From Undibacterium sp. YM2 (lineage in GTDB: Bacteria > Pseudomonadota > Gammaproteobacteria > Burkholderiales > Burkholderiaceae_D): a stretch of DNA of 64,000 nucleotides. Location: contig NZ_AP018441.1 in the NCBI RefSeq assembly GCF_009937975.1, positions 3,348,001-3,412,000 of the forward strand. Direction: 5' to 3'. A program made the position numbers and the translations under genes. Below the pieces are notes generated by a model. It ran no database searches. It was given only the letters and a program-made list of their open reading frames with translations, and was not told the origin of the DNA. This document shows, in pieces, positions 39,845 to 41,567 of the stretch (positions are counted from its first letter, which is position 1; each line of letters opens with the position of its first letter).

Positions 39845-40639
39845 ATGGCAGCATCTTTCCTCACCGGTAAAACCGCATTGGTAACAGGATCCACATCAGG
39901 CATAGGTCTGGGCATAGCCCGCTCACTGGCTGCCGAAGGCGCGAATATCATTTTCAATGGCTTTGGCGACAGACAGGAAATACAGACTTTGCAAACTGCC
40001 GTAGAAAACGAATTCGGCGTGAAAACGGCCTATCACAACGCCGACATGAGTAAAGCGACAGAAATCGAAGCCATGATGGCCTACGCTGATAGTAACTTTG
40101 GTGGTGTCGATATCCTGGTCAATAACGCTGGCATACAACATGTGGCCAATATTGAAGACTTCCCGGTAGAGAAATGGGATGCCATCATTGCCATCAACCT
40201 GACATCAAGCTTCCATACCACCCGCCTGGCCTTGCCGTACATGAAGCAAAAAAACTGGGGCCGCATTATCAACCTGGCATCCGTACATGGACTGGTTGCC
40301 TCTGCACAAAAATCTGCCTATGTAGCAGCCAAGCATGGTCTGATTGGCTTTACCAAGACCACGGCACTGGAAACTGCGCAAACAGGCATTACCTGCAATG
40401 CGATCTGCCCGGGTTGGGTATTGACACCGCTGGTACAAAAACAGGTCGATGCGCGCGCAGAAAAAGACGGCGTTGATAATGAAACCGCAAAAAAACGCTT
40501 GCTGGCTGAAAAACAGCCTTCAGGCGAGTTTGTCACACCTGAGCAACTGGGTGCACTTGCCGTATTTTTCTGCAGCGCAGCGGCAGATCAAATCCGTGGT
40601 GTAGCCTGGAATATGGATGGCGGCTGGGTAGCACAATAA
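39845..40639 (+). CDS. bdhA: 3-hydroxybutyrate dehydrogenase
   Basis: This 264-residue NAD-dependent SDR oxidises D-3-hydroxybutyrate to acetoacetate, the last step of PHB breakdown. The cofactor motif TGSTSGIGLGIA starts at residue 14, NNAGIQHV follows, and the catalytic pair is Tyr159/Lys163. The family signature KSAYVAAKHGLIGFTKTTALE and the Gln/His-rich substrate segments fit bacterial BDH. Acetoacetate produced here is the substrate of the CoA-transferase encoded 1 kb downstream. Caution: SDR specificity is inferred from overall resemblance. Confidence 0.88.
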   Translation: MAASFLTGKTALVTGSTSGIGLGIARSLAAEGANIIFNGFGDRQEIQTLQTAVENEFGVKTAYHNADMSKATEIEAMMAYADSNFGGVDILVNNAGIQHVANIEDFPVEKWDAIIAINLTSSFHTTRLALPYMKQKNWGRIINLASVHGLVASAQKSAYVAAKHGLIGFTKTTALETAQTGITCNAICPGWVLTPLVQKQVDARAEKDGVDNETAKKRLLAEKQPSGEFVTPEQLGALAVFFCSAAADQIRGVAWNMDGGWVAQ

Positions 40640-40672
40640 GCCACAGAACAGAACTACGGTGCATCAAAGTAT

Positions 40673-40968
40673 TTAGAACTCATTTCATAGATAGGGATGA
40701 GTTCGAACAAGGCGATTTGGGATGCAGTGCTAGGCCTAAGGTGTGTACGCTGCGCAGCTAAGGCGTCCGCCTTTGCAAGCGAGGGGGTGACACACTACGC
40801 GCAGCAATGCGCCCAAATCGTCAGTTCCCGAAGGGTTTGCCTCATAACGCGCGCTGGACTGCGTTGGACTCGTTGTCAATAGGCAAAGCTATTGACTGCC
40901 TAGTCCGCCTTGCCAGCCCGCGTTATGAGGCAAACGCATCTCACCCCTATTTATGAAATGAGTTCTAA
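40673..40968. repeat. 296-bp structured palindromic element (E2)
   Basis: The ends are 29-bp inverted repeats with two mismatches, starting TTAGAACTCATTTCATA. Inside are two further independent inverted-repeat arms: 40711-40822 (GGCGATTTGGG against CCCAAATCGTC) and 40835-40935 (17 perfect bases, GTTTGCCTCATAACGCG). The second arm ends in GTCAATAG-GCAAAG-CTATTGAC. No transposase or credible frame is present, and no clear target duplication is seen. It occupies the gap between bdhA and the DUF3617 gene. Confidence 0.85.
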
Positions 40969-41033
40969 TTTCACTGGTAGCATCCCTGGGTTCAGATGTA
41001 TAGTTTCATCACTGATATGAATAGGGAGTACCC

Positions 41034-41567
41034 ATGCAAACTGCAATACATGCAATACGCATCGTCCTGGTTTCTGCAACTTTACTGAGTGCCGCCACTT
41101 GTACTGCGGCAGACAAAATGAAGCCTGGCCTGTGGGAAATGACAACCAAGTCAGATGCCATGAAGGCCATGCCCAAAATCCCGCCTGAGCAACTGGAAAA
41201 AATGAAGCAGATGGGCATCAAAATGCCTGATATGCAAAACGGTGCGATGGTGAGCAAGGTCTGCCTCACCAAGGAAATGGTAGATCAGGAAAAACCGCCA
41301 ACCGGGGGCCGTGAACAGCACTGCCAGAACAAGAGTTTCAACCGCTCTGGCAATACCTATACTGCCGAGATGGTCTGCGACAGCCCGGACATGAAAGGCA
41401 CAGGTATCGTCAAGGGCAGCATGACTCCTGATAGCGTGAACTCGGTTTATGATTTCAAAGGCGTCTCGCACGGCAAGCCAATTGATCATCATATGGAAAC
41501 CACAGGCAAATGGCTGAGCGCTGATTGTGGCGGCACCAAACCTTTCACCATGCCGCCGAAAAAATAA
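41034..41567 (+). CDS. DUF3617 domain-containing exported protein
   Basis: This 177-residue protein has a signal peptide (about residues 1-26). The mature part starts KMKPGLWEMTTKS, the hallmark opening of DUF3617, and contains conserved cysteines (KVCLTKEM, REQHCQNKSF, EMVCDSP, SADCGG) likely to form disulfides in the periplasm. A Met/Lys/Pro-rich insert follows the first strand. The molecular role of the family is not known. It is monocistronic. Confidence 0.85.
   Translation: MQTAIHAIRIVLVSATLLSAATCTAADKMKPGLWEMTTKSDAMKAMPKIPPEQLEKMKQMGIKMPDMQNGAMVSKVCLTKEMVDQEKPPTGGREQHCQNKSFNRSGNTYTAEMVCDSPDMKGTGIVKGSMTPDSVNSVYDFKGVSHGKPIDHHMETTGKWLSADCGGTKPFTMPPKK

Follow-up and report, generated by a model that had tools for sequence, protein, structure and literature searches.

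The window analysed here is a stretch of 64,000 nucleotides from Undibacterium sp. YM2, and the element that we describe lies at 40673–40968 within it. Its two neighbours point in the same direction, the one ending 34 bases before it and the other starting 66 bases after it, and they belong to the short-chain dehydrogenase (PF00106) and DUF3617 (PF12276) families. The element itself contains no gene, as had been noted previously, the longest listed frame inside it being 61 amino acids. Its features are as follows.

40673–40701, forward strand: left-hand P1 repeat of 29 bp, counting a T and the TA, 27/29 complementary to the right repeat; covaries in relatives
40674–40675, no strand: left TA of the target duplication, from the sequence and the empty sites in L009 and L010
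40676–40965, forward strand: element body GAACTC...GAGTTC, one of the 17 two-ended copies in its own genome
40711–40822, forward strand: arm 1 (P2), closed by GGCGATTTGGG/CCCAAATCGTC, from DNA and RNA folds and covariation in relatives
40827–40835, forward strand: tiny hairpin P3, CCC-GAA-GGG, from the invariance of CCCnnnGGG
40835–40935, forward strand: arm 2 (P4), 17 perfect basal pairs and an 8-bp apical hairpin, from folds, model R1 and covariation in relatives
40940–40968, reverse strand: right terminal repeat P1, from complementarity to the left repeat
40966–40967, no strand: right TA of the target duplication, from the sequence and the empty sites in L009 and L010

The predicted folding energy of the 296 nt is −93.1 kcal/mol for DNA (z −13.6) and −163.1 kcal/mol for RNA (z −15.0), none of 200 shuffles being as stable in either case, and the highly ordered structure reported in the preliminary description is therefore real. 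Of the 29 bp in the terminal stem exactly two are mismatched, as given there, and both the 17 perfect pairs at the base of arm 2 (40835–40851 with 40919–40935) and the perfect 8-bp hairpin at its tip (40875–40882 with 40889–40896) can be read directly from the letters. The closed junction with two arms also stands, but its description as three-way does not, because the CCC-GAA-GGG hairpin sits between arm 1 and arm 2 and makes the junction four-way. A model of arm 2 and the small hairpin (R1), built from an alignment of 25 sequences (A1) in which the window copy is one row, matches that copy at 40825–40942 with 131.6 bits.

Some elements are longer. Arm 2 carries extra structured sequence in L019, L022, L028, L073, L074, L079, L080, L111, L113 and L158, which measure 341–368 bp with the TAs, while arm 1 is extended by structured sequence in L146 and L060, and the tips of the arms look as if they are able to accept modules.

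No clear target duplication had been recognised at this locus, which is incorrect, as TA at 40674–40675 and at 40966–40967 flanks the body. The occupied site in the window reads CAAAGTATT-TA(element)TA-ATTTCAC, and in two relatives the site is unoccupied and the two-base target is present once, CAAAGTATT-TT-GTTTCAC in L009 and CAAAGCATT-GT-GTTTCAC in L010, so that TT and GT stand where the window has TA. The same flanks recur among copies of the element's own end type, to which this count applies: after removal of 17 insertion sequence (IS) loci from 134 names, 117 element loci remained, six of them without a paired end, and of the other 111 TA flanks 91 on both sides, 16 on one side and four on neither.

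Searching the element's own genome gave 48 matching stretches, which merge into 18 places and one lone end, with both ends present in 17 of the places. The preliminary description had proposed such a genome search, and the element is indeed multicopy. Matches were found in 17 of 60 genomes including its own, all of one genus, and of 43 genomes from that genus nine contain the exact 16-base end, compared with 0/43 for the reversed control. At L034 (G000:C1:2563730–2563763) two facing ends lie about 34 bases apart with no interior, perhaps as a deletion remnant. The window element matched no record of the plasmid and phage collections at an E-value of 1e-5, and plasmid or phage cargo was rejected on these grounds. 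For relatives, partial matches were obtained to plasmid records from Burkholderia (two), Azotobacter (two), Halomonas (one), Pseudomonas (one) and Variovorax (one), and other comparisons of this kind gave no match. Plasmid pAcX50f of Azotobacter chroococcum carries a copy (50.6 bits).

An IS with the same ends as the element is present in genome G063. It is 859 bp long with its TAs included and has two overlapping transposase frames, with the Pfam domains DUF4096 and DDE_Tnp_1; against the NCBIfam model IS5_3 (cut-off 110) the frames score 120.8 bits and, just under the cut-off, 108.6 bits. A full-length copy with 76% identity and exact ends occurs in G003, a part of the IS in G019 at a contig end (97% over its last 223 bases), and a 48-base end fragment in G004 (88%). 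In G092, where the element end reads GAACCCATTT, 12 of the 20 DDE loci carry an 859-bp IS with the GAACCCATTT variant at one end. In the element's own genome, the G063 IS matches by its ends alone, its second frame has no protein match and the IS5_3 model finds nothing. The copies there may therefore be stranded, since these searches gave no transposase that matches. Two further observations concern these genomes: at L340 (G063:C1 4996081–4996874) an IS5_3 frame (4996452–4996874) directly adjoins an element (4996081–4996431), and L288 (G092:C1, around 3338117) is a long inverted repeat of transposase gene sequence of about 1.7 kb (alignment score 520) in a genome rich in DDE transposases.

By each feature that can be tested, the element is a TA-inserting MITE, because it is multicopy, is flanked by TA, has empty sites in relatives and shares its ends with insertion sequences. 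Its body is 290 bp, below the 500 bp expected of a MITE, and has no coding capacity; the terminal inverted repeats are 29 bp with two mismatches; the target is duplicated, as judged from the TA flanks of 91/111 copies and from L009 and L010; copies are dispersed over the own genome; and an IS with the same ends exists in G063, G003, G019 and G092, though not in the own genome. The earlier suggestion of a non-autonomous element that depends on a transposase from another place thus agrees with the copy number, the TA flanks, the empty sites and the IS with the same ends. From these shared ends we infer that the transposase of an IS5-type element with matching ends moves the element.

What is new is the interior, since the same four-way fold stands behind different ends in other Undibacterium elements. 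The weak matches seen in other members of the genus proved to be whole elements, usually near 270 bp in length, which follow the same plan inside and have ends of the GGGCCTGTTAACA type. The end types are many, for example GAACTCATTT, GGGCCTGTTAACA, GAAGCTGTCTTAACCC, GAGCCTGTCTCATAAAAT, GTGCTCCATCC, GTGTCCCTTAACA and GGGAAACACTGATT. G011, G062 and further genomes have IS5-type elements whose ends are related to the GGGCCTGTTAACA type; for G062, IS and element ends agree at 18 of 22 bases, the first 11 being identical, and in G417 a 1220-bp IS and the resident element have GGAAACACTGAT in common. G220 and G252 have one DDE locus each, which does not match, no DDE match was found in G158 and G473, and a partner IS is shown for a minority of the other end types.

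The distribution of the interior is wide. At a threshold of E ≤ 0.001, R1 found matches in 73 of 196 genomes among relatives (35/103 genera), in 74 of 369 in a class sample (59/272 genera) and in 39 of 398 in a phylum sample (28/213 genera), these samples overlapping and each counting the own genome, with rough E-values and search filters that drop weak matches. Paired end repeats surround 52/59, 21/28 and 9/9 of the loci examined in three sets, the loci without paired ends lying at contig edges or having no clear repeat. A second model, R2, comprises 73 matches, opposite-strand matches of the palindromic arm among them, and was used in no search. In G170, G160 and G391 several matches fall within the first 200 bases of contigs (in G391, C43, C45 and C74 at 4–118), which is expected if these repeats break assemblies. 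Known Rfam RNAs were rejected: for 40500–41150 of the window there were six matches up to E 10, all far under the gathering scores, and for the loci of seven relatives 15 matches up to E 1, all under the gathering scores and outside the elements. Nothing recognised as this element family was found in the literature consulted, including the available parts of PMC10969869, PMC4853749 and PMC3733652, with ISfinder and subscription papers outside its scope.

Covariation was assessed in a sequence-only alignment (A2) of 21 elements, 12 with the element's own ends and nine of the other type; these were hand-chosen from 31 aligned elements, some being close kin, and the ten omitted for insertions or larger differences include the window copy (L016). 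RNAalifold predicts 99 pairs on A2. The stem cells are paired in 97.0% of 2072 cases versus 76.9% after shuffling, two-sided changes number 433 cells versus 148, and 65/99 pairs have a two-sided change versus 49.8; 0/500 shuffles reach any of these three values. When the partner is shifted by one to three columns pairing is at most 40.3%, and further pair types are no more numerous than in the shuffles (117 vs 117.0). By helix, two-sided change is seen in 15/22, 5/7 and 4/6 pairs of arm 1 and in 11/21, 0/2, 3/4 and 6/6 pairs of arm 2, and the small hairpin is invariant in A2 and so uninformative on covariation. The terminal stem has two-sided change in 21/29 pairs, for which the need of both ends to suit one transposase could suffice. 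CCCnnnGGG is invariant in 25/25 aligned relatives and conserved in at least 90% of 37 elements chosen widely by hand, over which the most conserved letters are those of the junction and internal loops.

The stems thus covary beyond shuffles, as the check proposed in the preliminary description was to establish, and its suspicion that the structure itself matters is backed by this result. In copy number (18 places and a lone end) and in its covarying stems the element also differs from the single, non-covarying and untranscribed copy that the description would have taken for a chance or decayed sequence. That one covarying fold is common to different ends points to a structured module which has gone from transposase to transposase, with slow change of the ends as a possible alternative to such switching. 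We consider it likely that this is a non-autonomous element with a structured interior, that several transposases carry it, and that selection keeps its fold.

Mutation could imitate such a pattern. An ordinary MITE might keep its palindromes complementary through hairpin-templated repair or template switching, with no selection on the fold, and the near-perfect complementarity with few wobbles (GU in 834 of 17450 predicted pairs) would be expected from this, as would two strands that fold equally well. In five orthologous insertions, moreover, 24 one-sided stem changes were found, 13 that still pair and 11 that are broken, together with 20 further changes in unpaired bases and no two-sided change, and the fold has not been visibly mended after insertion. 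Our reading, from small numbers and at a short divergence where two-sided changes would be rare anyway, is that copies drift once they have settled and that the fold is kept in the mobile lineages. Repair of this kind should also erase the mismatched internal loops, however, and the loops with conserved letters, GCTAGGCG/CAACAACG and GCGTTG/CGCCTTGCC, are retained among end types with wholly different stem sequences; a purely mutational origin is accordingly unlikely in our judgement.

The two arms appear to be related to each other. The arm-2 model matches arm 1 in 12 of 45 loci, always on the opposite strand, where 16 more matches are the palindromic arm 2 itself, and the inverted likeness of the arms exceeds all 100 shuffles by plain sequence in 14 of 44 elements. 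In the window copy this likeness is not detectable by plain sequence, 38/100 shuffles reaching the same value. It is therefore at the level of the family that the arms are supported as inverted homologues, without this being proven for each copy, and either strand would then present one arm of each kind. Arms inverted relative to each other, hairpins with conserved mismatched loops, and one module behind many different ends would also be expected if the arms were substrates of a second hairpin enzyme, for instance an integrase of the integron type or a REP-type tyrosine transposase, to which IS ends had been added later; yet the TA flanks and terminal repeats already explain movement of the whole element, and we regard this origin as very unlikely.

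The preliminary description had offered a structured RNA of the gap between bdhA and the DUF3617 gene as its other possibility. A structured RNA or leader that acts in cis on its neighbouring genes, and that has spread secondarily, would find encouragement in the very stable RNA fold and in the position of the window copy, 34 bases after one co-directional gene and 66 before the next. Its site is empty in relatives, however, and the 49 classified contexts comprise 25 co-directional, 14 convergent and 10 divergent arrangements, with the element in the sense of the genes in 14 of the co-directional cases and opposite in 11; these gene calls are crude (longest frames of at least 90 amino acids) and such frames overlap many elements, so that intergenic status is not claimed for every copy. 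Over 158 copies the two strands fold alike (mean difference 0.34 kcal/mol, sd 8.2), the forward strand being favoured in 70 and the reverse in 87. Within 40600–41050 there is no promoter-like site, and the sole terminator-like site is outside the element on the other strand, on which basis a terminator or promoter was also rejected. A locus-specific RNA is not supported, because relatives lack the element, contexts are mixed and neither strand folds better; a locus-specific riboswitch or leader was rejected on the empty sites and mixed gene contexts, and we find cis-acting control of the neighbouring genes the least credible of the explanations weighed here, at the edge of what is plausible. 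Wobble counts, taken at pairs that are at least 70% Watson-Crick, are GU 82 and AC 23 in class-A copies, GU 59 and AC 56 in the wide set and GU 28 and AC 28 in A2, and the direction of the lean differs by arm and data set.

These observations, together with the selected fold that we prefer, lead to the following model. The element inserted between the short-chain dehydrogenase and DUF3617 genes, at a site empty in relatives. Its ends vary by lineage, but its four-way fold is conserved across many genera at the level of order, class and phylum. One structured module would be carried by several IS5-type transposases, and selection in mobile lineages probably maintains its fold. The acting form may be a folded single strand, either as single-stranded DNA in replication or transposition or as a transcript from either direction, and this strand would serve the element's own spread, not the adjacent gene.

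The usual view of MITEs is that they arise by internal deletion and that their interior is dispensable. On a broader view, for and against which we are evenly divided, the elements are phylum-wide mobile structured nucleic acids, built as a module of two inverted arms that has repeatedly swapped transposases and needs its fold to spread, and each is a parasite of insertion sequences, not a deletion product. Were a family to preserve one elaborate fold across a phylum behind differing transposon ends, selection on a non-coding interior would be shown along with a route for switching transposases; there would be a testable structured module, a covariance model with which to annotate numerous repeats that now lack annotation, and an explanation of why contigs break in some of these genomes.

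Several known systems resemble the element in part. Correia/NEMIS, RUP and ERIC are TA-flanked palindromic MITEs; to our knowledge they are shorter and have no four-way junction, and they are set apart by this description. RUP and NEMIS are named as MITEs in the accessible part of PMC3733652, which also gives REPs as 20–40 bp; REPs and REPINs likewise contain imperfect hairpins able to pair up when inverted, whereas the arms of the element are about 100 nt each and lie inside transposon ends. IS5-family insertion sequences (NCBIfam NF033580) have the same terminal repeats and TA flanks, as seen in the 859-bp IS of G063, but the element lacks a transposase and has no likeness to them in its interior beyond the ends. 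QMITE2 of Coxiella burnetii is also a MITE of a related class, depicted with its transcript in a stable fold, and is set apart by its description in the portion of PMC10969869 available to us, at about 190 bp with direct repeats of 7–9 bp. The same portion of that review defines type II bacterial MITEs as non-coding elements under 500 bp with terminal repeats, a target duplication and IS likeness at the ends only, describes MITE families for single species or groups, and contains no mention of covariation. The element shares the size class, the absence of coding capacity, the terminal repeats, the target duplication and the end-only likeness to an IS with these type II MITEs, and differs from them in an interior that is a covarying fold, common to different ends across a phylum.
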